A stretch of DNA of 64,000 nt, taken from NCBI RefSeq assembly GCF_000240165.1, contig NC_017585.1, positions 1,054,001 to 1,118,000 on the forward strand, written 5' to 3'. This document shows positions 38,879 to 62,920 of this stretch, piece after piece. The notes below the pieces were generated by a model. It saw nothing but the letters and a program-made list of their open reading frames with translations. It had not been told where the DNA came from and searched no databases. Numbering within the stretch: position 1 is the first letter of the stretch; each line of letters begins with the position of its first letter. The DNA comes from Streptantibioticus cattleyicolor NRRL 8057 = DSM 46488 (GTDB lineage: Bacteria > Actinomycetota > Actinomycetes > Streptomycetales > Streptomycetaceae). Made by a program: the position numbers and the translations under genes.

Positions 38879-39056
38879 CGTGTAGTCCCCCACAATGGAC
38901 CGGGCGCACCCCGTGTGCGCCTCCGCACCCCAGGACACGGCCACGGCACCGGTCGGTTCCCGCCGGACCGCACCAATGTCCGGGTGGCGTACGGGAATCC
39001 GGTGTCCGGGGATCTCCCGACTCCCCGCACGTCACGCCGGGCCGCACCATCGGTGC

Positions 39057-41672
39057 GTGGCGGCAACCGACGAGGAGAGCGCTCCGGCGCGGGACGGTGG
39101 TACGGCGGACGGCGGTTCCCCCGGCGGACGGCGGCGCCGGCGGTGGCGGTGGCTGCGGATCACCGTGCTCGTCGTCGTGGTGGTGCTGGTGGCCGGCGCG
39201 TGCGCGGGGGCGCTGTACGTCCGGTGGACGGTCGGCCGGTCGCTGCCGGTCACCTCCGGCCGCCTCGGCGTACCCGGGCTGCACCACCCGGTGGACGTGG
39301 GCCGGGACGCCTCCGGCATCCCGCAGATCCTCGCCGACGACCCGGAGGACCTCTTCCTCGCCCAAGGCTACGTCGAGGCCCAGGACCGCTTCTGGCAGAT
39401 GGACACCGAACGCAACATCGCCGAGGGGCGCCTCGCCGAGATGTTCGGCGCCGGCCAGGTCGACGACGACAAACTGGTGCGCACCCTCGGCTGGTACCGG
39501 GTGGCACGGCAGGAGGCCGACGCGGCGTCTCCGCGCACCCGCGCCTTCCTCCAGGCGTTCTCGGCCGGGGTCAACGCCTACCTCAAGGACCACACCGGCG
39601 CCCGGCTCAGCGTGGAGTACGCCGTCCTCTCCCTCGCCGACGGCTCCTACCGGCCCCGCCCGTGGACCCCGGTGGACTCGGTGGTCTGGCTCAAGGCGGT
39701 CGCCTGGCAGCTCAACTCCACCACCAGCGACCAGATGATCCGCGCCGTGCTCGCCGCGAAGTTCCCCGTCCACGACGTCGACCGGATCTTCCCGCCGTAC
39801 GACTTCAGCCGCTGGGACCCGGTCACCGGCCCCGCCACCGCCCGCTCCGCCCCGCCCTCCGCCGCCCGCACCACCACCGCCGTACCGGCCGCCGCCACCG
39901 GCGCGCTGACCGCCGTGTCGGACGTACGCCGCCGGCTCACCGCGCTGCTCGGCCCGTCCGGCACCGGCATCGGCTCCAACGCCTGGGTGGTGGCGGGCAG
40001 CCGGAGCGCCACCGGTGCGCCGCTGCTCGCCAACGACCCGCACCTGGCGCCGACGCTGCCCGGCGTCTGGTACCAGATCGGGCTGCACTGCCGCACCGTC
40101 ACCGCGGCCTGCCCCTACGACGTCACCGGCTTCACCTTCCCCGGCATGCCCGGCGTGCTCATCGGCCACAACCAGCGGATCGCCTGGGGGTTCACCGCGC
40201 TGGGCGCCGCCGACTCCGACCTGTACCTGGAGAAGATCACCGGCGACGACTACACGTACCAGGGCCGCCAACTGCCGTTGACCACCCGGCGCGAGACCAT
40301 CGCGGTGGCCGGCGGCTCCCCGGTCACCTTCACCGTACGGGCCACCCGGCACGGGCCGGTCATCTCCGACGCCGACCGGACGGCGGCGCGCACCGGCGCC
40401 GTCGGACGGGTCCCGGACGCGCCCCGGGCGGCCGGCGGATACGCGGTCGCGCTGCGCTGGGCCGGGCTCGTCCCGTCGCACACCATCGACGCCGTGTTCG
40501 CCATGGACGCGGCCACCGACTGGACCGGCTTCCGCGCCGCCGCGGCGCTCCTGGTGGCCCCCGCGCAGAACATGGTCTACGCCGACGTACGCGGGAACAT
40601 CGGCTACCAGATGCCCGGCCTGCTGCCCATCCGGGCGCGCGGCGACGGCAGTTACCCGGTACCCGGCTGGACCGGCGACCACGAATGGCGCGGCTACGTC
40701 CCCTTCGACAGGCTGCCGCACGAACTCAACCCCACCCGGGGCTACATCGTCACCGCCAACAACGCGGTCACCGGACCGGACTACCCGTACCCCATCACCC
40801 CGTACTGGGGCACCGGCTACCGCAGCCGGCGGATCGCCGACCTGATCACCGGCGGCGGGAAGCTGACCGTGGCCGACATGGGGCGCATCGAGGGCGACAC
40901 GCTCAACCCCAACGCGCGGCAGCTCGTGCCGTACCTGCTGAAGGCACCGGTGGCGCCCGGCACCGCCGCCGCGGTGGACCTGCTGCGCGGCTGGGACCTC
41001 ACCCAGCCCCCCGACTCTGCCGCCGCCGCCTACTTCAACGCCGTCTGGTCGCACCTGCTGGACCTGGTCTTCACCTCCCGGCTGCGCACGGCCGGGGACG
41101 TGGAGACGTTCGGCGCGGGCGGCGGGGGCCGCTGGTTCGACGTGGTCCGTACGATGCTCGGCACGCCGGACGACCCGTGGTGGAGCAGTCCGCAACAGCC
41201 CGCGCTGCACGGCCGGGACGCGGTGCTGGGCGCCGCGCTCGACGCGGCGGCCCGGGACCTGGACAAGCGGCTCGGCGGTGACCCCAAGCACTGGCGGTGG
41301 GGCGCGCTGCACACCCTCGAACTGCGCAACCAGACGCTGGGCACCGGCGCTCCGGCCCCGGTGCGGTGGCTGCTCAACCGCGGCCCCTACCAACTGGGCG
41401 GCGGCACCGACCTGGTGGACGCCACCGGCTGGTTCCCGCCCGACGGCTACGGCGTCGACTGGGTGCCCTCGATGCGGATGGTGGTCGACCTCGGACGGCT
41501 CGACGACTCCCGCTGGATCAACCTCACCGGCGCCTCCGGCCACACCGCCTCCCCGCACTACACCGACCAGACCGCCCTGTGGCGCGCGGGCCGCACCCTC
41601 CCGTGGCCCAGCAGCCCCGCGGCGGTACGGGCGTCGGTCAAGGAGTGGCTGCGCCTCACCCCCGCGCGCTGA
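39057..41672 (+). CDS. Penicillin acylase-family amidohydrolase
   Basis: The 871 residues from the GTG at 39057 form a membrane-anchored or exported N-terminal nucleophile hydrolase. A basic stretch (RRRRRWRWLR) precedes a hydrophobic helix at about 31-52. The alpha chain begins with DVGRDASGIPQILADDPEDL and includes YVEAQDRFWQMDTERNIAEG. A spacer ends at GTGIGSNAWVVAG, where Ser (about residue 305) becomes the N-terminal nucleophile of the beta chain after self-cleavage. Asn in LLANDPHL and ITANNAV-type residues follow. The family removes acyl groups from penicillins, acyl-homoserine lactones or lipopeptides. Its position beside a lipo-initiating NRPS cluster makes deacylation of that product, or of signals, an attractive guess. 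It meets the NRPS gene tail to tail, 15 bp apart. Confidence 0.9.
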   Translation: MAATDEESAPARDGGTADGGSPGGRRRRRWRWLRITVLVVVVVLVAGACAGALYVRWTVGRSLPVTSGRLGVPGLHHPVDVGRDASGIPQILADDPEDLFLAQGYVEAQDRFWQMDTERNIAEGRLAEMFGAGQVDDDKLVRTLGWYRVARQEADAASPRTRAFLQAFSAGVNAYLKDHTGARLSVEYAVLSLADGSYRPRPWTPVDSVVWLKAVAWQLNSTTSDQMIRAVLAAKFPVHDVDRIFPPYDFSRWDPVTGPATARSAPPSAARTTTAVPAAATGALTAVSDVRRRLTALLGPSGTGIGSNAWVVAGSRSATGAPLLANDPHLAPTLPGVWYQIGLHCRTVTAACPYDVTGFTFPGMPGVLIGHNQRIAWGFTALGAADSDLYLEKITGDDYTYQGRQLPLTTRRETIAVAGGSPVTFTVRATRHGPVISDADRTAARTGAVGRVPDAPRAAGGYAVALRWAGLVPSHTIDAVFAMDAATDWTGFRAAAALLVAPAQNMVYADVRGNIGYQMPGLLPIRARGDGSYPVPGWTGDHEWRGYVPFDRLPHELNPTRGYIVTANNAVTGPDYPYPITPYWGTGYRSRRIADLITGGGKLTVADMGRIEGDTLNPNARQLVPYLLKAPVAPGTAAAVDLLRGWDLTQPPDSAAAAYFNAVWSHLLDLVFTSRLRTAGDVETFGAGGGGRWFDVVRTMLGTPDDPWWSSPQQPALHGRDAVLGAALDAAARDLDKRLGGDPKHWRWGALHTLELRNQTLGTGAPAPVRWLLNRGPYQLGGGTDLVDATGWFPPDGYGVDWVPSMRMVVDLGRLDDSRWINLTGASGHTASPHYTDQTALWRAGRTLPWPSSPAAVRASVKEWLRLTPAR

Positions 41673-41687: not shown

Positions 41688-44600
41688 TCAGGGGGCCGGC
41701 GGGGTGTCGGGGTCGCCGAGGAGGGCGCGGGACTGGGCGGGGGACAGGGCGCGGACGGCTTCGAGGGCTTCGCGCAGTTCGGCCGCGCTGGTCCGGGCGA
41801 GGCGGCGCTGTTCGACGGCGCGGGCCAGGGCGGCGACGGTCAGGTCGTGGTGGAGCAGGTCGGCGATGGTCAGGTCGACGCCGAAGGTGTCGCGCAGGCG
41901 GACGGCGATGCGGGTGGCGAGCAGGGAGTGGCCGCCGAGGTCGAAGAAGTCGTCGTGGCGGCCGATGTGTTCGACGCCGAGCACGTCGGTCCAGATGGCG
42001 GCGACCAGGCGTTCCACCGGGGTGCGGGGGGCGGCGTCGGGTGAGGTGTCCGGACGGGCGGCGGGCGGGGCGGGCAGCGCGGCCAGGTCGGTCTTGCCGT
42101 TGGCCCCGAGGGGGAGCGCCGGCAGGGCGACGAAGACCTCCGGCACCATGTGGCGCGGCAGCCGCTGCCGCAGGTGGCCGCGGAGGAGGTCGGCCGGGAC
42201 CGCGGCGGGGCCGGGCGGTTCCGGTACCACGTGGGCGACGAGCCGGGGCGGACCGCCGCCGTCGGTGGTGACGGTCACGGCCGCCGCGGAGACGGCGGGG
42301 TGGCCCCGCAGGACGGCCTCGATCTCGCCGGGGTCGACCCGCTGGCCGCGGATCTTGGTCTCCCGGTCGAGGCGGCCCAGGATCTCCAGGCGTCCGTCCG
42401 GGCGCCAGCGACCGCGGTCCCCGGTGCGGTAGAGCCGGCCGCCGGGGACCGCCGGATCGGGGACGAACCGTTCCGCGGTGGCCGCCGGACGGCCCAGGTA
42501 GCCCCGGCTCACCTGGACGCCGCCGACGCAGACCTCACCGGCCACCCCGACCGGCACCGGCCGTCCGCCCGCGTCCAGCACGTACAGCCGGGCCCCGGCG
42601 ACCGGGCGGCCGACGGGCACCTTGCCGCCGGGATCGACGCCCGGGTCGACGGCTCCGACGGTGACCTCGATGGTGGCCTCGGCCGGGCCGTAGACGTTGT
42701 ACAGCCGGGCGCCGGGCAGCAGCCGGTGCACCGAGGCGGCGAGCTGCGGGGTCAACTCCTCACCGGCGCACTGGAGTTGGCGTACCCCGGCGAGGTGTCC
42801 GGCGGCGCCGGGCACGGCGAGGAGTTCCCGCAGCACCGACGGGACGAAGTAGCAGGCGGTGACGTGGTGTTCGGCGCAGAGCGCGGCCATCCGCTCCAGG
42901 TCGGCCGGACAGGCCCCGTCCGGGGTGACCAGGCAGGCGCCGGTGACCAGTGGCCACAGCATCTCGGAGACGGAGATGTCGAAGCCGCACGCGGTGTGCA
43001 GCAGCACCCGGTCGTCCGGGCCGAGGGGTTGCGCGGACCGCTTGGCCGCCAGTTGGTTGGCGAGTCCGGCCCGGGTCACCATCACGCCCTTGGGGGTGCC
43101 GGTGGAGCCGGAGGTGTAGATGAGGAAGGCGAGGTCGTCCGGGCGCGCGGGACGGGCGGGCGGCGCGGCGGCGGCGTCCGGGGTGCCGTCGGGCTCCGCC
43201 GAGGGGTCCAGCAGCAAGGTGGCGGTGCCGTCCGGGGCGAGGGACGCGCTGTCCAGGGCGGCGCAGCCGAGCAGGACGGCGGGGCGGGCGTCCTCGGCCA
43301 CCAGGCGCAGCCGGGCGGCCGGATACTCCGCGTCCAGCGGCAGGTAGCAGGCGTCCGCCTCGAGGATCGCCAGCAACGCGGTCACCAGCCCGGCGCCGTA
43401 CGGCAGATGGACGCCGACCACGGTGCCGGGGCCGGCGCCGAGCGCCCGCAGCCGGTCCGCGAGCCGGCCGGACCGGCGGGCCAGTTCCCGGTAGGTGAGC
43501 GGCGGGCCGCCGGTGGCGGGGAGCACGGCGGGCGCGGACGGGGTGGCGGCCACCTGGCGTGCGAAGAGCTTCGCGGCGGGCAGGTCGCCGGGCGGGGGCA
43601 CCGAGGCGCCGCTGAACTCCTCCAGCAGCCGCCGCCGTTCCTCCGGCGCGATCAGGTCGTGGGCGTCCAGGGCCTCGTCCGGGCGGGCCACGGCACGGTC
43701 GAGCAGCCGGCCGAAGGCGTCCGCCACGCGGGCCGCGGAACCGGCGTCGAACAGGTCGGTGGCGTACGCCAGCCGCCCCTCGCAGCCGCCGTCCGGGGTC
43801 GCCGTCAGATGCAGCGACAGGTCGAACTGGGCGGCGGGCAACGGCACTTCGAAGGCCTCGGCGACCGGTCCCGGCGCCCGCCACGGCGGCAGCGGCACCC
43901 CGAGCACGAACGCGGCCCTGGCCAGGTCGGCCCCGGGCGGTCCGCCCGCCGCCGACACCTCGCGGGCGATGACGTCGAGGGGGGTGTCGCGGTGGCGGTC
44001 GGCGTCCCGCCAGGCGGCGGCGGTCGCCCGCACCAGGTCGCGGAAGGTGGCGGCGGCGCCGACGGGGACGCGTACCGGGAGGGTGAGCGTGGTGAAGCCG
44101 ACGACGCCCTCGGCGCCCGGCGGCCGGCCGGCCGCGGTGGGCACCGCGACCACCACGTCCGGCTGTCCGCTCCAGCGCGCGAGCACGGCGGCGTACCCGG
44201 CCAGCAGCACGGTGAACGCGGTGGTGCCCTCGGCCCGGGCGAACGCGGCCAGCGCGGCGGATCCGGCGGGGGAGACCGCCACCGGGTGCAGGCCGCCACG
44301 GTGGCTCGGCCGCACCGGGCGCGGCCGGTCGGCGGGGAGCTCCAACGGCACCGTCCCGGCGAGCGCACGGCGCCAGTGGGCGGCGTCCTCGGCGGCCGAC
44401 GCCTCGGTCACCTCACGCCGCCAGGCGGCCAGATCACGGTACCGGGGCGCCTCGGGCAGCCGTGGTTCCCCGTCGGGGCCGGCCGCGCAGACCGCCTCGG
44501 CCTCGCGCAGCAGCACCGCCAGCGAGGCGCCGTCCACCGCGATGTGATGCACCGTCAGCACCAGTGCGTGGTCGTCGTCGCCGAGCCGGAGCAGGGCGGC

Positions 44601-46961
44601 CCGCAGCGGTGTCTCCCGCGCCAGGTCGAACGGTTCGGCCAACTGGTCCCGGGCCCACCGCTGCACGGCGGTACGGGCACCGTGGCGCCGGGCGTCCACC
44701 GTGAGGTCCACGTGGCGCAGCGGTGGCGGGGTCCAGGCACGTACCGTCTGGACGAGGGTGCCGTCCGGCTGGAAGTGGTACGTGGTGCGCAGCGCCTCGT
44801 GGCGGCGGGTGACGGCGGTCAGCGCCGCGGTGAGCAGTTCGGGGGCGCGGCGGCCGGGCAGCCGCAGGGCGGCGGTGACCAGGTAGGCCGGGCCCGCCCC
44901 GGCCTGGTCCAGCAGCCACAGCCGGTGCTGGTCGGAGGTGGCCGTCGAGGTGGCCGGCGCGGCCCCCGGCCGCCAGGGCACGGCGTCCCGTGGTGCCCGC
45001 ACCATCCGCGCGGCCAACTCCCGCAACGGGACCGGCTCCAGGAACTCACGCACCGCCACCCGCGTCCCGGTGGCCCCCTCCACCGCGGCGGCGAGCCGGG
45101 CCGCCGCCAGCGAGTCCAGCCCCTGCGCCACCAACGGCAGATCGTCCCGCAACACGTCGGCGGGGACCTCCAGCGCCTCGGCGGCGAGCGCCCTCAACCC
45201 GGCACCGGCGGACGGCAGTTCGCCATCGCCCCCGCCCGACCGCGCGTCCCCGTCCAGCCGCGACCGGTCCAGCTCCCCCGCCAGGTACGCCTGCCGGCAC
45301 GCCGACCGGCGGACCTTGCCGCTGGAGGTGCGCGGGACGGAGCCGGGGCGTACCAGGGCGACGTCGGCGAGGCGCAGTCCGTGCGCGGTGGCCACGGCGG
45401 CGCGTACCGCGGTGGCGGCGTCGCCGAGGGCGGCCGGGTCGTGGCCGCGGACGACCTCGTGCACCAGGACGACCCGTGGTGTCGCGCCGTCGTCCAGGGC
45501 GAAGAGCGCGCCACGGCCGGGCATCAGCAGCGGGTGGGCGCGTTCCGCGGTCTGTTCGACGTCCTGGGGGTGGTGGTTGCGGCCCCGGACCACGACCACG
45601 TCCTTGGCGCGTCCGGTCAGGTACAGGTGGCCGTCGAGCACGGCGCCGAGGTCGCCGGTGCGCAGCCAGTCGGCCTGGTCGCCGTCGGAGCGCCGGGCGC
45701 GGAACGTCTCCTCGGTCGCGCCGTCGTCGCCGAAGTAGCCGGCCGCGACGGTGGGACCGCTGATCCACACCTCGCCGATGTCCCCGTCCGGCAGCTCGCG
45801 CGCGGTGGCCGGATCGACCACGGCCACCCGGTCCGGGGTGCGGGCGGCGCCGCAGGCCACCAGCACGGGGTGACCGTCGCCGTCGGCCGGGACCAGCCTG
45901 CCGTCCCCGAGGCCGTCGCGGTCCACGGTGAGCGCGGTCGGCCCGGCGCCCGCCGTGCCGCCGGTGACGAACAACGTGGCCTCGGCCAGCCCGTAGCAGG
46001 GGTAGAACGCGGACCGGCGGAACCCCCGCGCGGCGAAGGCGCCGGCGAACGCGTCCAACGTGGCCGCGCGCACCGGCTCGGCCCCCACCAACGCGTGGCG
46101 CCAGCCGCTCAGGTCGAGCCCGGTCCGTTCCGCCGCGCCGACCCGGCGCACGCACTCGGCGTACCCGAAGTCCGGGGCGGCGCTGATGGTCGCCCGGTGC
46201 CGGGAGATCAGCTCCAGCCAGCGCCCGGGGTGGCGGACGAAGGCGGACGGCGGCAGCAGCACGCACGGGAAGCCGCTGAAGACCGGTTGCAGGATGCCGC
46301 CGATGAGCCCCATGTCGTGGTAGGGCGGCAGCCAGCTCACCCCGGAGTCCTCCGGGCCCACCGACAACGCCCCGGCGAGCGCGGCGGCGTTGTGCAGCAG
46401 ATGGCCGTGGTGGAGCACCACGCCCTTGGGCCGGGCGGTGGAACCGGAGGTGTACTGGAGGAACGCCACCGTGTCCGGGCCGGTGCGGGGCGGCTGCCAG
46501 GCGTCGGCCGGGACGTCGGGGGCGGACTCGGTGGAGCACAGCCGTACCCCGCGCAGCCCGGGGTGGCCGTTCCACCGCTCGCCGAACGCGGCCAGGCTCG
46601 CGGTGTCGGTCAGCGCCAGGGCCGCACCGCAGTCGGCCGCCACGTCCAGCACCCGCTCGATCCGCCGCCCGCCGCCCGGCGGATACGCCGGCACCGCGGT
46701 GATCCCCGCGTACAGGCAGGCCCAGAAGCCGATGACGTACTCCCGCCCCGGCGGATACAGCAGCAACGCCCGCTCGGCCGGCGGGCCCTCCCGCAGCCCG
46801 GCCGCCACCTGGCGCACCCGGCGGTCGAGTTCGGCGTAGCCGACCGGGTGTTCACCGGCGTCGTCCACGAAGACGTACGCCGTGGCCTCGGGGGTGGTGG
46901 CGGCCCGGTAGCGCAGCAGCTGCACCAGGTCACGGAAGGCGGGGTGCTCGTCGGCCGGCAT
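41688..46961 (-). CDS. NRPS: FAAL-ACP-C-A-PCP with C-terminal tail
   Basis: The 1757 residues read in order as follows. A fatty acyl-AMP ligase covers about 10-590 (FLQYTSGSTARPKGVVLHHG, WLPPYHDMGLIGGILQPVFS). A carrier has Ser near 616 (AQGLDSLAA). A condensation domain covers about 690-1100 (HHIAVDG, residue 805). An adenylation domain covers about 1110-1620 (YTSGSTGTPKGVMV, VYGPAEATIEVT, YRTGDRGRWRPDG; pocket start CGFDISVSE). A PCP has Ser near 1677 (DLGGHSLLAT). A helical tail of about 50 residues (ELREALEAVRALSPAQSRAL) may be a docking segment. It activates a fatty or related acid without CoA, loads it and joins one amino acid, giving an acyl-aminoacyl chain. There is no thioesterase or terminal domain. 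The gene follows the thioesterase gene by 15 bp (AAGGAGA) and is last in the operon with the peptide and radical SAM genes. Confidence 0.95.
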   Translation of the reverse strand: MPADEHPAFRDLVQLLRYRAATTPEATAYVFVDDAGEHPVGYAELDRRVRQVAAGLREGPPAERALLLYPPGREYVIGFWACLYAGITAVPAYPPGGGRRIERVLDVAADCGAALALTDTASLAAFGERWNGHPGLRGVRLCSTESAPDVPADAWQPPRTGPDTVAFLQYTSGSTARPKGVVLHHGHLLHNAAALAGALSVGPEDSGVSWLPPYHDMGLIGGILQPVFSGFPCVLLPPSAFVRHPGRWLELISRHRATISAAPDFGYAECVRRVGAAERTGLDLSGWRHALVGAEPVRAATLDAFAGAFAARGFRRSAFYPCYGLAEATLFVTGGTAGAGPTALTVDRDGLGDGRLVPADGDGHPVLVACGAARTPDRVAVVDPATARELPDGDIGEVWISGPTVAAGYFGDDGATEETFRARRSDGDQADWLRTGDLGAVLDGHLYLTGRAKDVVVVRGRNHHPQDVEQTAERAHPLLMPGRGALFALDDGATPRVVLVHEVVRGHDPAALGDAATAVRAAVATAHGLRLADVALVRPGSVPRTSSGKVRRSACRQAYLAGELDRSRLDGDARSGGGDGELPSAGAGLRALAAEALEVPADVLRDDLPLVAQGLDSLAAARLAAAVEGATGTRVAVREFLEPVPLRELAARMVRAPRDAVPWRPGAAPATSTATSDQHRLWLLDQAGAGPAYLVTAALRLPGRRAPELLTAALTAVTRRHEALRTTYHFQPDGTLVQTVRAWTPPPLRHVDLTVDARRHGARTAVQRWARDQLAEPFDLARETPLRAALLRLGDDDHALVLTVHHIAVDGASLAVLLREAEAVCAAGPDGEPRLPEAPRYRDLAAWRREVTEASAAEDAAHWRRALAGTVPLELPADRPRPVRPSHRGGLHPVAVSPAGSAALAAFARAEGTTAFTVLLAGYAAVLARWSGQPDVVVAVPTAAGRPPGAEGVVGFTTLTLPVRVPVGAAATFRDLVRATAAAWRDADRHRDTPLDVIAREVSAAGGPPGADLARAAFVLGVPLPPWRAPGPVAEAFEVPLPAAQFDLSLHLTATPDGGCEGRLAYATDLFDAGSAARVADAFGRLLDRAVARPDEALDAHDLIAPEERRRLLEEFSGASVPPPGDLPAAKLFARQVAATPSAPAVLPATGGPPLTYRELARRSGRLADRLRALGAGPGTVVGVHLPYGAGLVTALLAILEADACYLPLDAEYPAARLRLVAEDARPAVLLGCAALDSASLAPDGTATLLLDPSAEPDGTPDAAAAPPARPARPDDLAFLIYTSGSTGTPKGVMVTRAGLANQLAAKRSAQPLGPDDRVLLHTACGFDISVSEMLWPLVTGACLVTPDGACPADLERMAALCAEHHVTACYFVPSVLRELLAVPGAAGHLAGVRQLQCAGEELTPQLAASVHRLLPGARLYNVYGPAEATIEVTVGAVDPGVDPGGKVPVGRPVAGARLYVLDAGGRPVPVGVAGEVCVGGVQVSRGYLGRPAATAERFVPDPAVPGGRLYRTGDRGRWRPDGRLEILGRLDRETKIRGQRVDPGEIEAVLRGHPAVSAAAVTVTTDGGGPPRLVAHVVPEPPGPAAVPADLLRGHLRQRLPRHMVPEVFVALPALPLGANGKTDLAALPAPPAARPDTSPDAAPRTPVERLVAAIWTDVLGVEHIGRHDDFFDLGGHSLLATRIAVRLRDTFGVDLTIADLLHHDLTVAALARAVEQRRLARTSAAELREALEAVRALSPAQSRALLGDPDTPPAP

Positions 46962-46976: not shown

Positions 46977-47756
46977 TCAGCCGCGGGGGGTGGTTGCGCG
47001 CGGGTGCGGTGCGGCGCACCCGGTGATGTCGGCCGCCAGCCGGGCGACCACCTCGTCCTCGGCCTGCTGCACGAAGAAGTGGCCGCCGTCGAAGGTGTGC
47101 CGGGCGAAGTCACCGTCGCCGTACGCCTGCCACCCGGCGGTGTCGGCCACGGTCACCGAGGTGTCGCCGGCCCCGAGGTAGACCCGCACCGGACAGCCGG
47201 GGACGGGCCCGGACGCCCGGCCCGCGGCGGCGGCGAGCGCGAGGTCGGCGCGGACCGCGGGGATCAGCAGCGCCCGGTACTCGGGGTCGGCCAGCAGCTC
47301 GGCCGGGGTGCCGCCGTGCTCCCGCAGGAACTCCAGCACCTCCTCGTCGCCGAGTCCGGCGGCGGGCAGTTGCAGCCGAACCGAGTCGGGGGCCTCGCTG
47401 GCGGCGGCCACGAAGAGGGCGGGGCGCCAGCCCGGGTCGCGTTCCCGCAGCCGGGCACAGAGCGCCCGTCCCACCAGCGCGCCCATGCTGTGCCCGAAGA
47501 CCACCAGCGGCACGTCGAGCAGCGCCTCGACCTCGCGGCCCAGCGAGTCGGGCCCCGACACCACCGCGTCCAGGTCGTGCACCGGCGGCTCCCGCAGCCG
47601 TGAACCGCGGCCGGGCGGCTCGACGGCCAACACCCCGATGTGGTCGGGGAGTTTGCGCGCCCAGCGGCGGAACAGATGGGCCGCCCCGCCGGCCGGCGGC
47701 AGACACAACAGCCGCACCGCCACGTCCGGGCGGCGCGACCAGTCACGGAGCCACAC
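46977..47756 (-). CDS. Type II thioesterase
   Basis: The GTG at 47756 (GGGAGGGAAG upstream) gives 259 residues matching discrete thioesterases of NRPS and PKS clusters: LLCLPPAGGAAHLFRRWARK, the nucleophile motif GHSMGALVGRAL, an acid residue in VYLGAGDTSVT, and the catalytic His in FDGGHFFVQQAEDE. Such enzymes release wrong or stalled acyl groups from carrier domains or release the product. A longer frame back to 47999 is an artefact: it reads through the peptide gene repeats in another frame, giving an Arg/Ser/Pro-rich false N-terminus. It lies between the peptide gene (104 bp upstream, with a large hairpin in the gap) and the NRPS gene, 15 bp downstream. Confidence 0.9.
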   Translation of the reverse strand: MWLRDWSRRPDVAVRLLCLPPAGGAAHLFRRWARKLPDHIGVLAVEPPGRGSRLREPPVHDLDAVVSGPDSLGREVEALLDVPLVVFGHSMGALVGRALCARLRERDPGWRPALFVAAASEAPDSVRLQLPAAGLGDEEVLEFLREHGGTPAELLADPEYRALLIPAVRADLALAAAAGRASGPVPGCPVRVYLGAGDTSVTVADTAGWQAYGDGDFARHTFDGGHFFVQQAEDEVVARLAADITGCAAPHPRATTPRG

Positions 47757-47859: not shown

Positions 47860-48036
47860 CTAGGCGAGACGTTCGTGGGCGATGCCCTCCTGCGCGAAGC
47901 GCTCGTGGGCGATGCCCTCCTGGGCGACGCGCTCGTGCGCGATGCCTTCCTGGGCGAGCCGCTCGTGGGCGATGCCCTCCTGGGCAAGGCGGACGACAAC
48001 CGGACGGCCGGCGCCGACTGCGGTGAGCTTGGCCAT
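47860..48036 (-). CDS. Repeat peptide, candidate RiPP precursor
   Basis: The reverse strand encodes a 58-residue peptide: a 16-residue leader-like start (MAKLTAVGAGRPVVVR), four consecutive copies of a 10-residue unit (LAQEGIAHER twice, then VAQEGIAHER and FAQEGIAHER), and a final Leu-Ala before TAG. Only the first residue of the unit varies (Leu, Leu, Val, Phe). Codons within the units differ at silent positions, so the protein is what is conserved. The ATG is 3 bases after the stop of the radical SAM gene, and GGAGGTG inside that gene's end is its ribosome site, so translation is coupled. The pattern of leader plus tandem cores next to a radical SAM enzyme fits a ribosomally made, modified peptide (RiPP) precursor. 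The unit holds modifiable Gln, Glu, His and Arg but no Cys, Ser or Thr. No known family is recognised. Confidence 0.8.
   Translation of the reverse strand: MAKLTAVGAGRPVVVRLAQEGIAHERLAQEGIAHERVAQEGIAHERFAQEGIAHERLA
47869..47988 (-). repeat. Four tandem 30-bp coding repeats
   Basis: The units occupy 47959-47988, 47929-47958, 47899-47928 and 47869-47898 and encode the four 10-residue peptide copies. They have no spacers and differ mainly at third codon positions, so they are neither a CRISPR array nor a recent slippage product. Confidence 0.95.
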
Positions 48037-48039
48037 GAC

Positions 48040-49944
48040 CTACACCTCCTTCACGGGGTCGAGTACGCCTGCGGCGGTCAGCTCGGCGAGGACGTCGGGG
48101 TCCAACGTCACCGGTCCGGAACCGGCGGCGGTGCCGCGGATCCGTTCCAACTGCGCCAGCAACGAGGGGTCTGCCGCGAAGTATTCGAGCTGACCCGCCT
48201 TCCGGAGGACCAGGTAGTCCCCCGGGCTCTCCACCGGCTCCGCCCGATGATCGCGCGACAGATCGGCGAGAGGCTCCTGCAACCGGACCACTTCGTGCGG
48301 TCGCGGCTGGAACCAGCGCTGCCCGGTCCCGTCCGACACCTCGACGGCCGGACCGCCGGGCGCCAGGCTCACCCGCAGCTCGGCGCACTCCAGGGCGAAG
48401 GCGTCCCGGGTGCTGGCCGACAGCCGGCGGGCGGCGAAGAGGTCCTGGAACCGTTCCCGTTCCACCGCCCGGCGCCGCCGCGGCTCCACCGCCAGCAGGT
48501 CGAGTCCGCCGACCACCGCCTCCAGCAGCTCCCACAGCGACCCCTCGTCCACCAGGACGTACTGGAGCAGGGTGCGCGGGAAGGCGGAGAAGAGCGTGTA
48601 GGCGGCGTGCATCGCCGACACGAAGCGGGTGTAGGCGGGCAGCGGCAGGAAGGTGCTGTGGAACGGGAAGAGCCCGGGGGCCCGCCGGGCGTACGGGTTG
48701 TCCTGCACCACGGGCGGGGTGTCCAGCAGCAGCCGTGGCTTGAGGTCGGTGTAGCTGCGCGGCAGACCGGCGAACTCGGTGGCCGTGGCGGTGGCGTTGT
48801 AGACCGTCAGCGTGTTGAGGCGGATGCCGCAGCCGAGGTTGCGGGTGAGCAGCGCGGTGGTCAGCGCCAGGTCGGTGCTGCGGTGGTCGTCGCCCTCCGG
48901 GATGTCGATCATGAAGGCGCAGGTGGGGATGATGCCCCGGTCCAGGCAGTCCCGCAGCCGCTGCTTGAGCGGCTCCCAGCCCTTGAAGAAGTGCTTGGCG
49001 AACGAGCGCTGCGCCTCCTCCGAGATGGCGTCCACCCCGACGAACAGCTCCGTGCACCCCGCCGCCGCCAGCCGGTCGAGCAGGTCCGGGGTGAGCCGCT
49101 GCATGGTGGCGTAGGCGTTCCAGGTGATCCCGGTGCCCGACCCGGTCAGCGCGGCGCACAACTCCTGGGTCGCCTTCACCGAGTTGACCAGGTTGTCCTG
49201 GACGAAGAACAGGTGACGGGCGCCCATCGCGTGCATCCGCGCCACCTGCTCGGCCACCGCCGACGCGCTCTTCGTCTGCTCGCCCTGGCCCCAGTGACCG
49301 GGGCTGTAGCAGAACGAACAGCGGAACATGCAGCCCCGGGCGTGGTCGACGTTGAGCAGCCGGAGCGGGTTGAGCGCGAAGTAGTCGTCCAGCTCCACCA
49401 GGTCGTACGCCGGGAACGGCAGCTCGTCGAGGGACGTCATGCCCTTCAGCGCGCGGCGCAGCGCCACCTCGCCGCCGGACCGGTGGGCCACGTTGACCAG
49501 TTCGCCCGGGGCGCCGCCCAGCACGCGCAGCAGCGAGATCAGCGCCTGCTCGCCCTCGCCGGTGACCACGTAGTCGATCCAGTCGAAGGCGTCCAGCGCC
49601 TCCCGGGCGATCGAGGAGAAGTGCGGCCCGCCCAGCACCGTCAGCAGCCGCGGATCCGCCGCCTTGAGCAGCCGCGCCAGCTCCAGGCAGACGTGCGACT
49701 CCACCGCCATCGAGGTGAAACCCACCAGATCCGGCTGGGTTTCGGCGATGGCACGCACGGCACGGGGGTAGAAGTCCGCCCCGTGCAGCGACGGATCGCC
49801 CATGCCCATCAGGTTGAAGTCCACCAGCGACACCTCGGCGCCGTGCTCGCGGGCCACGGCGGCCAGCGTGAGCAGTCCGAGCGGTGGCGCCAGATCGTAA
49901 CGGTCGACGAAGCCGTTCGGCGGCTGCACCAGAGTCAGACGCAT
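48040..49944 (-). CDS. B12-binding radical SAM enzyme
   Basis: The 634 residues contain an N-terminal cobalamin-binding Rossmann-like domain (about 1-160; LTLVQPPNGF, VSLVDFNLMGMGD, VLGGPHFSS) and a radical SAM barrel (about 195-420) with the cluster motif CMFRCSFC and GHWGQG. Family members transfer methyl groups or remodel carbon skeletons by radical chemistry. The last part (about 530-634; LRKAGQLEYFAADPSLLAQL, then DPDVLAELTAAGVLDPV) looks like a small winged-helix module similar to PqqD-type peptide recognition elements; that is a judgement by eye. The gene ends 3 bp before the repeat peptide, which is the obvious substrate. AAGGGACG precedes the ATG. The shared promoter region with the divergent P450 carries a palindromic box. 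Acting on an NRPS-bound intermediate instead is possible. Confidence 0.9.
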   Translation of the reverse strand: MRLTLVQPPNGFVDRYDLAPPLGLLTLAAVAREHGAEVSLVDFNLMGMGDPSLHGADFYPRAVRAIAETQPDLVGFTSMAVESHVCLELARLLKAADPRLLTVLGGPHFSSIAREALDAFDWIDYVVTGEGEQALISLLRVLGGAPGELVNVAHRSGGEVALRRALKGMTSLDELPFPAYDLVELDDYFALNPLRLLNVDHARGCMFRCSFCYSPGHWGQGEQTKSASAVAEQVARMHAMGARHLFFVQDNLVNSVKATQELCAALTGSGTGITWNAYATMQRLTPDLLDRLAAAGCTELFVGVDAISEEAQRSFAKHFFKGWEPLKQRLRDCLDRGIIPTCAFMIDIPEGDDHRSTDLALTTALLTRNLGCGIRLNTLTVYNATATATEFAGLPRSYTDLKPRLLLDTPPVVQDNPYARRAPGLFPFHSTFLPLPAYTRFVSAMHAAYTLFSAFPRTLLQYVLVDEGSLWELLEAVVGGLDLLAVEPRRRRAVERERFQDLFAARRLSASTRDAFALECAELRVSLAPGGPAVEVSDGTGQRWFQPRPHEVVRLQEPLADLSRDHRAEPVESPGDYLVLRKAGQLEYFAADPSLLAQLERIRGTAAGSGPVTLDPDVLAELTAAGVLDPVKEV

Positions 49945-50004
49945 GACGTCCCTTGGTCGGTCTTCGAGGTGCCACCAATCTGGCGCCGTGGCCGGTGACC
50001 AGCC

Positions 50005-50020
50005 AGTCGGGGAAAGCCCC
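50005..50020. promoter_or_regulatory. Cluster box A (radical SAM / P450 divergent region)
   Basis: AGTCGGGGAAAGCCCC contains the inverted repeat GGGG-AAAG-CCCC and is followed by TACAG. It lies in the 175-bp gap between the divergent operons and closely matches boxes at 55132 and 61041. It is a candidate binding site of the cluster regulator at 57288-58202. Confidence 0.5.
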
Positions 50021-50119
50021 TACAGCCCCCGCGCGGCCCCGGTACGCGACCTTGACCGGCCGGTCGGCGCCTCCGTACCGTCACCCCGACGGCGCGCAGC
50101 CGAGCCGGGAGGCCCGCAC

Positions 50120-51319
50120 GTGGACAACGAGATCGTCCTGACCCGCTACGCCGACGCACTCGACGCCTACCGCAGGAAGGAACTGGGCCAGGCCCAGTAC
50201 GACGAGGGCCACGTCCTGATGGCCGGGGTGCTGGTCAACCTGCACGGCACCGAACACCGCGACCGCCGGCGGGTGGAGAACCAGCTCTTCCGCCGGGAGA
50301 CCTTCCTGCACTACGAGAAGGAGGTCTTCCCCGACGTCACCGCCGCGGTCCTCGCCCCGCACGCCCGGCGCGGCGCCACCGAACTCGTCGCGCTCGGCCA
50401 CGAACTCATGCTCCACCTCGCCGTCCTCGTCGCCGGGGTGGACCGCCCCGAGGGCACCGAGGCGGAGACCCGGCGGCTGGCCGGGCAGCTCAAGGTCTTC
50501 ATCGAGGCGCTCACCCTGGCCCAGTCCACCCTGGACAAGGACGAACGGCGGGCCGCGATCGCCGATGCCTTCACCGACTGGCGGCGGGAGTTCCTCACCC
50601 CCTCCGCCCGCCGCCGGCGCGCCCTGCTGGCCGGCCTCGCCGACGGCACCGTCCCCGAGCGGCAGCTCCCCCGGGACGTGCTCACCCTGCTGCTGCGCCA
50701 CCAGGACCGGCTGGGCCTGTCCGACGAACTGATCGCCCGGGAGACCGCGTTCTTCCTGCTGGTGGCGGCGCACACCAGCGCCACCGCCTTCGTGCGCGCG
50801 GTCCACCACCTCCTGGAGTGGACCGCGCGCCACCCCGAGGACGCCCGACGGGCCGCCGACGACCCGCGGTTCGCGCAGCGGTGCGTGCACGAGACGATCC
50901 GGCTCAACCCCTCCAGCACGGTGGGGATGCGCCGGGCGCTCGCCCCGGTCACGCTGGAGTCCGGCATCACCGTCCCCGAGGGCGCCCGGGTCGTCATCGA
51001 CCTGCGCACCGTCAACCGCGACCCGGCCGCCTACGGCCCGGACGCCGCCGAGTTCGACCCGCACCGCGAGATCGCCCCCGGCGTCATGCCGTTCGGGCTG
51101 AGCTTCGCGGCCGGCATGCACGTGTGCATCGGGCAGGACCTGGCGGCCGGGGTCCTCCAGAGCGGCAGCGGCCCGGACGCGTCGCTGTACGGGCTGGTGG
51201 CCACGGCGGTACGGGAGCTGTTCGCGCTCGGGGTGCGCCGCGACCCGGCCGCGCCGCCGGTGCGGGACACCACGACCACCCGGGAGTACTGGGCGCGTTA
51301 CCCGGTGCTGCTGGGCTGA
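50120..51319 (+). CDS. Cytochrome P450
   Basis: The 399-residue soluble monooxygenase has the K-helix ETIR (Glu-x-x-Arg), a PERF-like region (DAAEFDPHREIAPG) and the haem loop FGLSFAAGMHVCIGQDLA with the Cys ligand. The I-helix reads VAAHTSATAF, lacking the usual AGxxT acid-threonine order, which may alter oxygen handling. The GTG at 50120 has GGGAGG upstream; earlier starts lack P450 sequence. A 3Fe-4S ferredoxin gene follows after 25 bp and presumably supplies electrons. Being divergent from the radical SAM gene, it should act on the cluster product (hydroxylation, crosslink or oxidation); the substrate is unknown. Confidence 0.93.
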   Translation: MDNEIVLTRYADALDAYRRKELGQAQYDEGHVLMAGVLVNLHGTEHRDRRRVENQLFRRETFLHYEKEVFPDVTAAVLAPHARRGATELVALGHELMLHLAVLVAGVDRPEGTEAETRRLAGQLKVFIEALTLAQSTLDKDERRAAIADAFTDWRREFLTPSARRRRALLAGLADGTVPERQLPRDVLTLLLRHQDRLGLSDELIARETAFFLLVAAHTSATAFVRAVHHLLEWTARHPEDARRAADDPRFAQRCVHETIRLNPSSTVGMRRALAPVTLESGITVPEGARVVIDLRTVNRDPAAYGPDAAEFDPHREIAPGVMPFGLSFAAGMHVCIGQDLAAGVLQSGSGPDASLYGLVATAVRELFALGVRRDPAAPPVRDTTTTREYWARYPVLLG

Positions 51320-51554: not shown

Positions 51555-54983
<3,429 letters not shown>

Positions 54984-55131
54984 GGGACTCCCTGCTGTGG
55001 CCGGACCGCACGCGGGTCGCTGGACGCTGGAAGGGCGGAGGCGCCGGTTCCGCGTCGTGGGCCCTGCGGCTTCGACGCGGCGGTCCGCGCGCACCGCGGC
55101 AACAGCCTGGCAGCACGGCGGCGCCCGCTTA

Positions 55132-55146
55132 AGTCGGGGAAACCCC
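55132..55146. promoter_or_regulatory. Cluster box B (NRPS / DUF885 divergent region)
   Basis: AGTCGGGGAAACCCC carries GGGG-AAA-CCCC and matches box A (50005) over its whole length with one base less in the centre. It lies 148 bp before the C-A-PCP NRPS and 42 bp before the DUF885 gene. A possible -10 (TACAGT) is at 55175. Confidence 0.5.
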
Positions 55147-55188
55147 GGACCGCCCCGCCCGTGTGCCGCACCCCTACAGTGGGCCGCC

Positions 55189-56727
55189 ATGGATGCCCGC
55201 CTGCGTGCCGTGTGCGATCTGCTGGTGCCGACCGTACGCGAGGAGGCGGGGCGCCACGAATACGACGGCGCGGTGCAGGACCTCTCCCCGGACGGGGTCC
55301 GCGCCGCGCTGGCCCGGCTGGACGCCGCCGCGGCCGGCCCCGCCCCGGACGACCCGCACGACGCCGCCCACCTCGCCGTCTTCGAGGAGGCGCTGCGGGT
55401 ACGCCACCGGCGGCTGGAACTCCACCGCCGCGACCCCTATCCGCACCTGGCCAACCTCGAACTCGCCTGCTACGAGCGGCCGTACGCCCCGGCCGAGCAG
55501 CGCGCCGCGGCCCGCCGACGGCACCTCGCGCGGTGGCCCGACGCGATCGACGCCGCGCTGGAGAGCCTCGACGCGGTGACCGCCCCGGTCGCCCGGGCGC
55601 TGCTCGGCACCGCCCGCGGACTCGCCGCCGACGTCCGCCCCGACGACGGCGACCTCGGCGAACGGGCCCTGCGCGCCCACGCCGCGCTCGTGGCCCACCT
55701 CGAACACGCCGCCCTGCACGGCCCGCCCCGGGCGGCGCTCGGCGGCCCCGCGCTGGCCGCGCTGATGGGGTCGGCCGAAGGCGTCACCGTCGACCTCGGC
55801 CGGCTCGCCGAACGCGCCGACGCCGAACGCCGCAGACTCACCGAACTGCTGCGGGACGCCTGCGCCCGCGTCGAACCCGGTACCGCGCCCGCCGCGCTGC
55901 TGCCCAGGCTCTTCGCCGACCACCCGGAACCCGGCGCGGTGCTCGCCGAGGCCCGCTCGCTGGCCCGCGAGTCGATCGCCTTCACCCGCGAGCGGCACCT
56001 CGTACCGTACGTGGACGGCGAGTGCGAGGTCGTCCTGCCGCCGCCGTCGCGCCGCTGGGTGACGGCGATGATGGTGTGGAACCCGCCCGGCGAACCCGAC
56101 GCCCCCTCCCGCTACCTGGTCACCCCGCCCGACCCCGGCTGGGAACCCGCCCGCGCCGAGGAGTGGCTGACCCGCTACAGCCGCACCACGCTGCCCGCGA
56201 TCACCGTGCACGAGGTGGCCCCCGGGCACTTCGCGCACGGCCGGACGCTGCGCCGCCTGACCTCACCGGTGCGGCGGACGCTGCACTCGCTGACCTTCAT
56301 GGAGGGGTGGGCGCACTACGCCGAGGAGGTGTGCCTGGAGGAGGGGTTCCGCTCCGGCGACCCCCGGTTCGCGGTCGGCGTCGCGGTGGAGGCCCTGGTC
56401 CGGGTCACCCGGCTGGCCTGTGCCATCGGGCTGCACACCGGGGCGATGGACGTCGAGGAGGCCACCGCGCGGTTCATGTCGGACGCCCATCTGGCCCGGG
56501 AGGCCGCCGCCGCGGAGGCCCGTCGCGGCACCTTCGACGCCACCTACGGCCGGTACACCTGGGGCAAGTTCGCCCTGCTCGACCTGCGCGAGCGGGCCCG
56601 CAGGGAACCGGGCTCCACCCTGCCGGCCTTCCACGCGACCGTGCTTGCGCTGGGCTGCCCCCCGATCGGCCTGCTGGACCGGGTGCTGGACACCCCACGC
56701 CGGCCGGCCGGAACGAGGGGACACTGA
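55189..56727 (+). CDS. DUF885-family zinc metallopeptidase-like protein
   Basis: This 512-residue soluble, mostly helical protein has the metal motif HEVAPGH near residue 345 (TVHEVAPGHFAHG) and a second Glu in FMEGWAHYAEE, which together make the gluzincin-like site of DUF885 proteins. These are predicted peptidases or carboxypeptidases related to the M32/M3 fold; several occur in natural product clusters with hydrolytic or dehydrating roles. The ATG at 55189 follows a promoter-like region with cluster box B. Its place beside NRPS genes and a candidate RiPP precursor makes it a candidate protease for cutting the repeats apart (inference). It ends directly at the DinB gene stop. Confidence 0.85.
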   Translation: MDARLRAVCDLLVPTVREEAGRHEYDGAVQDLSPDGVRAALARLDAAAAGPAPDDPHDAAHLAVFEEALRVRHRRLELHRRDPYPHLANLELACYERPYAPAEQRAAARRRHLARWPDAIDAALESLDAVTAPVARALLGTARGLAADVRPDDGDLGERALRAHAALVAHLEHAALHGPPRAALGGPALAALMGSAEGVTVDLGRLAERADAERRRLTELLRDACARVEPGTAPAALLPRLFADHPEPGAVLAEARSLARESIAFTRERHLVPYVDGECEVVLPPPSRRWVTAMMVWNPPGEPDAPSRYLVTPPDPGWEPARAEEWLTRYSRTTLPAITVHEVAPGHFAHGRTLRRLTSPVRRTLHSLTFMEGWAHYAEEVCLEEGFRSGDPRFAVGVAVEALVRVTRLACAIGLHTGAMDVEEATARFMSDAHLAREAAAAEARRGTFDATYGRYTWGKFALLDLRERARREPGSTLPAFHATVLALGCPPIGLLDRVLDTPRRPAGTRGH

Positions 56728-57287: not shown

Positions 57288-58202
57288 TCACCCGGCCAAC
57301 GGACGGGAGTCGGCGAGCGCGTCGAGCCGGCCCAGGCAGTAGGCGACCTGGGTGCGGGAGCAGACGGCGAGTTTCTTGAAGATGCGGGCCATGTAGGTCT
57401 CCACCGTCTTCTGGCTGAGCCCCAGCCGGCTGGCGATCTGCTGGTTGGTGCACCCCATGGAGACGAACCGGGCCACCTGCGTCTCGCGTTTGCTCAGCGC
57501 CTCCAGCTCCGGCTCCTCGCCGCCCTCCGGCTCCGGATCGCAGACCACCTCCCCGACCGCGGGGAGTTCGGCCGCGGGGGCGCGCAGCTCCCACGCCTGG
57601 AACGACGCCCCGGCCGCGGCCTGCCGCAACTCGTCGGCGACCTGGCACGCCTGGGCCGAGCGGCGCACCACGGTGACCACCAGCACCGGACCGTCCGGCG
57701 GGCGGCGCACCAGATGACGCAGGAGCGCCATCGTCTCCGGCCCGGCCAGATGGGCGTCGTCCAGCGCCAGCAACAGCCCGCGCGGCCGGGCCAGATGGCC
57801 GAGCAGCACCCGCAGCGCCCCGTACGGCTGGGCCTGAGCGGTGCCGCACGCGGCCGGCCGGGTGGTGGTCAGCCGGGTCGCCGCGGCCGGCAGGACGGCG
57901 GCCAGCGCGCTCAGTTCGGCGGCGGCGAGCTGGTCCCACAGCGTCTGCGGGGCCCGCCGCAGACAGGCGTCCACGGCGTCGGCGACCCCGCCGAACGGTT
58001 CCGTGGTGCGCTCCGCCCGGCCGGCGGCGACGGTCCAGCCGCGCCGCCGGGCACCGGCGCAGAACTCGGCCAGCAGCCGGGTCTTGCCGATCGACGCCTC
58101 CCCGGTGAGCTGGAGCAGCCGGGCGGATGCGCCGGCCCGGTCGAGGTCGAGCAGGTTGTCGAACAGCGTGAGTTCCCGCGTCCAGCCCGTGATTGCGGGC
58201 AC
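57288..58202 (-). CDS. LuxR-family regulator with P-loop domain
   Basis: The 304 residues from the GTG at 58202 contain an N-terminal ATPase-like part with Walker A GEASIGKT and Walker B LLLALDDAHL. It is shorter than the roughly 900-residue LAL regulators because the central part is missing. A C-terminal LuxR helix-turn-helix (about 235-295) reads LSKRETQVARFVSMGCTNQQ, then SRLGLSQKTVETYMARIFKK. It is the only pathway-type regulator in the cluster and is likely the activator acting on the shared boxes at 50005, 55132 and 61041 (inference). It lies just downstream of mbtH on the same strand. Confidence 0.9.
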   Translation of the reverse strand: MPAITGWTRELTLFDNLLDLDRAGASARLLQLTGEASIGKTRLLAEFCAGARRRGWTVAAGRAERTTEPFGGVADAVDACLRRAPQTLWDQLAAAELSALAAVLPAAATRLTTTRPAACGTAQAQPYGALRVLLGHLARPRGLLLALDDAHLAGPETMALLRHLVRRPPDGPVLVVTVVRRSAQACQVADELRQAAAGASFQAWELRAPAAELPAVGEVVCDPEPEGGEEPELEALSKRETQVARFVSMGCTNQQIASRLGLSQKTVETYMARIFKKLAVCSRTQVAYCLGRLDALADSRPLAG

Positions 58203-58273
58203 GGCTGAGCCCCCCGTCGTCTGCGGAAATGCGGTGGTCGGACAAGCGGTGGTGCCGGTGGTGCCCGCCGTGG

Positions 58274-58486
58274 TCAGCGGTGGTCGCCGTCCAGGGCACG
58301 GCGCACGCTGAGCGGGCGCATGTCGGTCCAGGTCTCCTCGATGTGGCGCAGGCACTCCTCCTTGGAGCCCAGCGGACCCTCGGGCCGCCAGCCCGCCGGG
58401 ATCTCCTGGTCGGCGGGCCAGATGGAGTACTGCTCCTCGTCGTTGACGACGACGTGGAAGCGGGAGAGGGGGGATTGATTCGGCAC
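58274..58486 (-). CDS. MbtH-like protein
   Basis: This 70-residue activator binds NRPS adenylation domains and is often needed for their activity. The family signature is complete: [20 protein letters not shown], then [20 protein letters not shown] and [13 protein letters not shown], including the invariant Ser, Leu and Trp residues that contact the adenylation domain. The GTG at 58486 has GGAGG seven bases before. It should support the two amino-acid-activating NRPSs here. The gene lies between the exporter and regulator genes. Confidence 0.97.
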
Positions 58487-58575
58487 AGCGAACCTCCGAG
58501 TGGGATCAGACACGGTCGAACAACGAGCCGCGCTACCGCACGGGCCCGATACTACGAGGGGTGACCCGGTCGTGA

Positions 58576-59868
58576 CTACGGTTCGGCAGGCTCGCCGGAC
58601 GTCATCGCCAAGTCGGCGCGCCGGGCCAGGGCGGCGGCGACGTCCCGCTCGGTCAGCCGTAGCACCCCCCACACCCAGCCCACCGCGAGCAGAGCGCCGC
58701 CGACCAGGAACGGGGTGCGCAGCCCCAGCCGTTCCGCCAGCGCCCCGCCGGCCAGCGCGCCCAGCGGCGCCATGCCCAACGCCACGAAACGGTAGGCGGA
58801 GTTGACCCGGCCCATCAGCTCCGGCGGCACCAGCAACTGCCGCAGCGAGACCCCGACGACGTTGGTCACCCCGACCGAGGCGCCCACCCCGGTGAAGGCC
58901 AGCGCGGCGAGGAGCGGACCGGTGGCCGTGGCGGTGACGAAGAACGCGGCCGGGGCCAGCGCCATCGCCCCGTGCAGGGTCCGGGCCCGGCCCAGCACGG
59001 CGCTCGCGGCGGGCGCCAGCAGCGTGCCGGCCAGCCCGCCGACCGCGATCACCGCCAGCAGCACCGCGTACTCGCCCCGCCCCACGTGCAGCACCTCGAA
59101 GGCGTAGAGCACCGCGATGGCCACCACCGAGGTCACCGCGAAGCTGGAGACCCCGGTCAGCAGGCACAGCGTCCGCAGCACCCGGTGGCGCAGCAGCCAG
59201 CGCAGCCCGTCGGCGGCGTCGGCGAGCACCGTGCCCCGCACCCTGGCCTCCGGCGGCGCGGGAACCACCGGGGAACGGGCCCGGACCAACCCGAGCACCA
59301 GCACCGCGGCACCGGCGAACGAGGCCGCGTCCACCACGAACGGCAGCCCGGCCGGCAGCGCGAACAACGCCACCCCCACCGGCGGCCCCAGCACCTCCAC
59401 GAAGAGCAACTCGGTCGCCTGCGTGCGGCTGTTGGCCCGTTCCAGCAACCGGGGCGGCACCAGTGACTGCACCACCCCCAGCAGCGCGTTGTCGCGCAGC
59501 GTCTGCGCCGAGGCCAGCAGGAAGTTGAAGGCGATCAGCAGGGCGACGGTGGCCCCGCCGGTGGCCACCACGGCGGCGAAGGCACCGGCCAGCACGGCCC
59601 GCGCCAGATCGGTGGACCACAGCACGCGGCGCCGCTCCCAGCGGTCGGCGAGCACCCCGGTGACCGGGCTGACCACCAGCCACGGCACGGTGCCCGCCAC
59701 GGTGACCGCGGCCACCAGCTGCGGCTGCCGGGTGAGCGCCGCCGCCAGCAACGGCAACGCGCCCTGCCGGATGCCGTCCCCCGCGGCGGAGACCGCGGAG
59801 GCGCCCCACAGCCCGCGGAAGGCGGCGCCCAGCCGGGGTCCGCCGTCTTCGGAGGATGCCCGCCTCAC
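58576..59868 (-). CDS. MFS exporter
   Basis: The 430-residue membrane protein has about twelve helices and the MFS_3/enterobactin exporter-like pattern: [40 protein letters not shown] (the loop after helix 2), [24 protein letters not shown], and [24 protein letters not shown] helices. These pumps export siderophores, peptides or antibiotics, so it is the likely product exporter and self-resistance pump. Its GTG overlaps the stop of the oxygenase gene by 4 bp, placing both in one operon, 89 bp ahead of mbtH. Confidence 0.93.
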
Positions 59869-62890: not shown

Positions 62891-62920
62891 CGCGACAGCT
62901 CCTCGGAACGTCGGATGGGG

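Follow-up and report, generated by a model that had tools for sequence, protein, structure and literature searches.

A conserved tandem-repeat peptide beside a B12-dependent radical SAM gene, candidate RiPP-like precursor in a predicted lipopeptide NRPS cluster of Streptantibioticus cattleyicolor

Our analysis of a 64,000-nucleotide stretch (the window) of plasmid pSCAT from Streptantibioticus cattleyicolor NRRL 8057 points to a 58-residue peptide made of tandem units as the likely precursor on which the neighboring B12-dependent radical S-adenosylmethionine (SAM) enzyme acts; each unit would be modified, with a predicted cleavage after its arginine to follow. The peptide is best read as a tandem-core precursor of the kind known from ribosomally synthesized and post-translationally modified peptides (RiPPs), lying inside a lipopeptide nonribosomal peptide synthetase (NRPS) cluster; we infer its substrate status, chemistry and cleavage from sequence comparison. 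If this holds, the gene pair would represent a further RiPP-like class, with a precursor not found in the protein collection searched, and a B12-radical SAM enzyme would apparently carry its own peptide binder of the type that otherwise partners a multinuclear nonheme iron-dependent oxidase (MNIO). As the strain is cultured and sequenced and both the masses and the gene pair are defined, the chemistry can be tested directly.

The repeat peptide and its orthologues

The peptide (Table 1) consists of a leader-like segment, MAKLTAVGAGRPVVVR, followed by LAQEGIAHER, LAQEGIAHER, VAQEGIAHER and FAQEGIAHER and a terminal Leu-Ala. An earlier note, made from the sequence of the window, had described this open reading frame (ORF) with the same coordinates, four units, first residues (Leu, Leu, Val, Phe) and terminal Leu-Ala, together with a ribosome-site-like GGAGGTG and a start 3 bp past the radical SAM stop, and all of this is as we find it: the enzyme ends in TAG, followed by GTC and by the ATG of the peptide. 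The units were called perfect there, which is true of nine of their ten positions, the first one (x) being variable. Apart from histidine, the peptide has a single aromatic residue, a Phe that occupies an x position; there is no Tyr, and the fixed core lacks Cys, Ser and Tyr. A short gene beside that of a modifying enzyme, encoding a leader followed by cores, has the anatomy of a RiPP precursor, leader and core being delimited here from the repeat pattern.

The array stands out in the window, where its 30-bp repeat takes the top of 39 Tandem Repeats Finder rows (score 184) and the ORF holds the sole tandem peptide array in the six frames (exact repeats of period 5–24, or three copies of period 9–12 with at most one mismatch each), with none in 10 codon shuffles. 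The genome has a single copy. The family seems as undescribed as the earlier note had supposed: neither NCBIfam nor Pfam has a family that the window peptide matches, and a collection of ~5.8 billion proteins yielded none of 0.55–1.75 times its length sharing three 5-residue words with it. Viral contigs searched with the DNA pattern gave two loci with one match each and no array, and the string AQEGIAHER was not found in the literature searched.

Orthologues were found in two distant relatives. A scan of named genomes returned Nonomuraea guangzhouensis, whose ORF, directly after the enzyme and 3 bp past its stop, reads (GTG)ALITKLEARRPVTVR, five xAQEGIAHER units (x being Met, Leu, Leu, Leu, Leu) and Leu-Arg. 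In the second relative, genome G1458, which we infer to be Actinophytocola oryzae, MIEEIGARRPAPVR is followed by three units (Ile, Thr, Thr) and Leu-Ala-Ala-Arg, its ATG lying 2 bp past the enzyme stop in a frame other than that of the enzyme. The unit number is thus three in Actinophytocola, four in the window and five in Nonomuraea. All three peptides share A(G/R)RPxxVR immediately before unit 1, and Arg is the last residue of the leader and of every unit. The earlier note had asked whether homologous loci lack the ORF or interrupt it by stops or frameshifts; it is intact in both relatives and hence in all three loci read, window included, a count that leaves aside distant plasmid-borne relatives of the enzyme (<31% identity). 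The proposal of a multi-core precursor linked to a B12-radical SAM gene is strengthened by this conservation and by the close linkage of the two genes, their enzymes being 64% identical between the window and each relative.

The pattern of substitution argues for selection on the peptide. Across the 12 units of the three loci, nine of ten residues are invariant and every codon difference in these nine is silent: six of the nine third positions vary and none of the 18 other positions does, for at least nine changes. Had changes fallen evenly, the probability of this would be about 1e-6 to 1e-5, a value that is only rough, since copying between units is possible. The silent third-position differences among the window units, already taken by the earlier note as a sign of selection, recur in both orthologues, and the x position holds six different residues over the 12 units. 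The enzymes of the three loci are 63–66% identical, 34–37% of residues differing, and third positions differ in 29–33% of identical residues.

Genomes were sampled with the enzyme (E <= 1e-60, best candidates per genome scored, sampled sets overlapping), and the only hit was the genome of the window itself in its own genus (1/1), family (1/394) and class (1/394), Nonomuraea itself in the genus (1/54) and family (1/61) of genome G394, and the inferred A. oryzae in the family of G675 (1/390); the order of G450, a set without positive control, gave 0/397. The repeat pattern likewise recovered only the query genomes in the phylum (1/296) and in the genus of G1458 (1/6). Nine plasmid records matched the enzyme, of which only that of the window (pSCAT, 100% identity) reached 80% coverage, the other eight being below 31% identity. 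The Actinophytocola peptide matched 26 plasmid records, namely that of the window and 25 below 60% identity; the 19 listed of these 25 have E values of 0.5–0.8 and are named pentapeptide-repeat proteins.

The radical SAM enzyme and its C-terminal module

C204, C208 and C211 of the enzyme are invariant in 40 aligned sequences, and Pfam recognizes the B12-binding and radical SAM domains and no further one. The nearest NCBIfam model, NF050148 (ApyD), scores 161.1 bits against a cut-off of 750 and covers residues 5–355 only, and TIGR03975 (RiPP maturation C-methyltransferase) scores 110.9 bits against 281.85. The last ~200 residues have the predicted fold of NGO1945 and TglI, over both subdomains, suggesting a fused peptide-recognition module; Pfam DUF2063 gave no match at E values up to 10 with C-terminal fragments of the three enzymes.

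The enzyme ends in Lys/Glu-Glu-Val (K/E-E-V) because the Shine-Dalgarno-like sequence lies in those codons. This tail, defined after viewing the alignment, occurs within the last nine residues of 11 of the 120 homologues listed among 286 matches, the enzyme of the window included. In a tree computed after removal of the last 20 residues, the K/E-E-V enzymes form one group (support 90), and the next sequence, P0008, has no such tail. The coupled peptide is therefore probably present in that clade, to which Kitasatospora brasiliensis (P0003), Actinophytocola sediminis (P0004) and Kibdelosporangium (P0005) belong. Homologues farther away (P0013 and below), some of them named Eremiobacteraeota, Hyphomicrobiales or Dehalococcoidia, could act on other peptides; 29 distant homologues in alignment A1 cover the same C-terminal region, with K/E-E-V, among those listed, in P0052 only.

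Proposed mechanism and alternative explanations

We propose that enzyme and peptide would be made together and that the leader would be held by the C-terminal module of the enzyme, predicted to bind peptides through a fold of the DUF2063 plus RiPP recognition element (RRE) type. The radical SAM/B12 core would then modify each unit at the same residue; the most likely reaction would be an sp3 C-methylation, with a C-C cross-link through the invariant His as second choice. The majority of RiPP B12-radical SAM enzymes are described as methyltransferases, other reactions being known (PMC12707348). A protease would finally cut after the Arg ending the leader and each unit, a site suggested because Arg holds these positions in all three orthologues, to release 3–5 modified decapeptides per chain. 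The calculated [M+H]+ values of LAQEGIAHER, VAQEGIAHER and FAQEGIAHER without modification are 1123.5854, 1109.5698 and 1157.5698; a methylation would add 14.016 per unit and a cross-link would subtract 2.016, and a Val unit carrying one methylation would have the mass of a bare Leu unit.

The repeats might act instead as nucleic acid, a possibility raised by an intergenic 30-bp tandem array that could provide binding sites or an attenuator. We rejected this DNA-element reading, which is highly improbable, on the grounds that the nine fixed codons vary at third positions only, in the peptide frame; start, stop and Shine-Dalgarno-like sequence are moreover present in three genera, and nothing in the window attains the gathering score of an Rfam family. 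Just as hard to sustain is a read-through tail of the enzyme: the window and Nonomuraea ORFs do follow in frame after the enzyme stop and one codon, but the Actinophytocola ORF lies in another frame, and a read-through fusion was rejected for that reason. An unmodified small partner protein, a scaffold or activator binding the NRPS or the enzyme by repeated contacts, would fit a fixed sequence in variable number (3–5), as in docking repeats, and the NRPS neighbors. We nevertheless consider it improbable, since a substrate better accounts for the leader-like start, the Arg at each boundary and the close link to an enzyme whose predicted fold would recognize peptides.

The strongest competitor, although still unlikely, places the peptide upstream of the lipopeptide: the enzyme would alter one residue per unit, and proteases would then release that residue, or some fragment, for activation by NRPS1. 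Each AQEGIAHER unit would then be a dose of building block, or of whole decapeptide, and a radical-SAM-modified ribosomal tandem peptide would feed a lipopeptide NRPS, a scheme to which we attach the same low probability. NRPS1, enzyme, peptide, TE1 and P450 A co-occur in all three loci, the specificity residues of NRPS1 are nearly constant whereas those of NRPS2 vary (window versus Actinophytocola), and many identical units would raise the yield. However, no such route was found in the literature searched, and nine fixed residues are not obviously needed to harvest one. This explanation stays alive because a constant gene group surrounds a varying lipopeptide part; given the setting of FAAL-NRPS and P450 genes (see below), the peptide may indeed serve lipopeptide assembly. 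If its units also served the NRPS, ribosomal and nonribosomal routes of peptide synthesis would be linked in one product.

Comparison with known systems

In design, the nearest published relative appears to be the TVG pathway (TvgA/TvgB) of Halomonas (PMC9062424). There, too, a precursor repeats a short motif and a single radical SAM enzyme modifies the same residue in several repeats, and another precursor with a His-Asn-Arg repeat is mentioned; however, the enzyme is of the SPASM type and turns a TVGG repeat into cyclopropylglycine, and the part describing the five-gene cluster has no NRPS genes, unlike the cluster of the window (PMC9062424). The ranthipeptide pair PapA/PapB also shows one radical SAM enzyme making several like changes along one precursor, but these are Cys-Asp thioethers (PMC9413430) and the window unit has no Cys. 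ApyD of the aminopyruvatide pathway is a B12-radical SAM RiPP enzyme described as RRE-containing that produces beta-methyltyrosine and whose cluster includes an MNIO (PMC10635010), whereas the window peptide has no Tyr and the cluster region examined no MNIO. BipD of biphenomycin, likewise a B12-radical SAM enzyme with a ribosomal precursor as substrate, forms an ortho-tyrosine biaryl cross-link, and its cluster also encodes an MNIO and an arginase (PMC12707348). NGO1945 (3dee) and TglI (8hi7, 8hci), which the C-terminal module resembles in predicted fold, are separate proteins serving an MNIO (PMC12452194), whereas the module is fused to the B12-radical SAM enzyme.

The aligned module is 11–13% identical to NGO1945 and TglI. 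Cyclophane-forming (triceptide) systems combine a SPASM-type enzyme with an aromatic-x-x core motif. The earlier note had seen an echo of them in the His-Glu-Arg of the unit; the enzyme is of the B12 type with no Pfam domain beyond B12-binding and radical SAM, and such a link, although it may exist, is unsupported at present. The literature searched, judged mostly from titles and the beginnings of abstracts, yielded no case of tandem cores served by a B12-radical SAM enzyme within an NRPS cluster. Each part belongs to a known kind; what is new, within the reach of these searches, is the precursor family, the fused binder and the setting.

The surrounding predicted lipopeptide gene cluster

Judged by gene content and order, the setting is a conserved cluster of fatty acyl-AMP-ligase-like (FAAL) NRPS and P450 genes, which the earlier note had overlooked. 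Five neighboring genes are kept in both relatives (NRPS1, the enzyme, P450 A, TE1 and NRPS2), and the order NRPS1, enzyme, peptide, TE1 is the same in all three loci. P450 A, TE1 and the lipopeptide NRPS are genetic partners of the peptide gene. In Nonomuraea, an extra NRPS precedes NRPS2 and P450 A lies farther away.

Table 1. Features of the repeat peptide locus and its neighborhood in the window
Feature	Position	Strand	Remarks
Repeat peptide ORF, 58 residues	47860..48036	(-)	ATG start, TAG stop; orthologues known
Leader-like segment MAKLTAVGAGRPVVVR	47989..48036	(-)	From sequence comparison
Unit 1, LAQEGIAHER	47959..47988	(-)	
Unit 2, LAQEGIAHER	47929..47958	(-)	
Unit 3, VAQEGIAHER	47899..47928	(-)	
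Unit 4, FAQEGIAHER	47869..47898	(-)	
C-terminal LA and stop	47860..47868	(-)	Orthologues end LR / LAAR instead
GGAGGTG, Shine-Dalgarno-like	48043..48049	(-)	Within final radical SAM codons (Lys-Glu-Val-stop); 6 bases 5' of peptide ATG
B12-binding radical SAM enzyme, 634 aa	48040..49944	(-)	PF02310 residues 19-137, PF04055 residues 201-354
Enzyme C-terminal module	48043..48657	(-)	Predicted fold of MNIO partner proteins, DUF2063 plus RRE type
Thioesterase TE1, stand-alone	46977..47756	(-)	PF00975; GTG start inferred from Nonomuraea comparison; 48-54% in relatives
NRPS2: FAAL, carrier, condensation, adenylation, carrier	41688..46961	(-)	44-45% in both relatives
NRPS1: condensation, adenylation, carrier	51555..55190	(-)	60-62% in both relatives
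Cytochrome P450 A, start uncertain	49943..51319	(+)	PF00067; 58-59% in both relatives
Penicillin-amidase-type acylase	38895..41672	(+)	PF01804; 33% relative in Actinophytocola locus

Reading the NRPS1 adenylation domain by eye gives the specificity residues D-M-Y-S-V-V-L-Y-C for both the window and Actinophytocola, and Nonomuraea departs from these at a single place; for NRPS2, compared by eye between the window and Actinophytocola only, the two sets of residues are not the same. A protein search with NRPS1 was uninformative, multi-domain synthetases dominating the matches. In the stretches searched, the acylase is present in two of the three loci, with none in that of Nonomuraea. It matches PvdQ weakly (50 bits, far below cut-off). 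In pyoverdine biosynthesis, a FAAL and an acylase serve an acylated-prodrug scheme, and the FAAL-like start of NRPS2 and the penicillin-amidase-type acylase may, by analogy, do the same here. The cluster region examined has no MNIO; the single MNIO of the genome lies on another contig, as do the two of Nonomuraea relative to its cluster, the Actinophytocola genome not having been searched for MNIO. Candidate exporter and protease genes are those of major facilitator superfamily (MFS) proteins (window, Nonomuraea) and an M28 peptidase (Nonomuraea).

Past the right end of the window (L019, 7667-12283, reverse strand) lies an NRPS with condensation, adenylation, methyltransferase and carrier domains. 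A Nonomuraea NRPS (L002, 12975-17408) has the identical domain set, and the cluster therefore probably extends beyond position 64000. P450 B and the thioesterase TE2 (window 62168-64000, reverse strand; L015 766-4990, forward strand) are 72% and 65% identical to Nonomuraea proteins, the only close counterparts in the two relatives, and these counterparts are preceded by an adenylation-peptidyl carrier protein (A-PCP). A-PCP, P450 and thioesterase form a triad for beta-hydroxylation that supplies beta-hydroxy amino acids. The window also encodes an MbtH-like protein (58274-58672, reverse strand), near a LuxR-type regulator (57288-58355) and an MFS protein (58576-60459), and, at 23590-27543 on the forward strand, one protein combining AMP-binding, carrier and hexapeptide-transferase domains.
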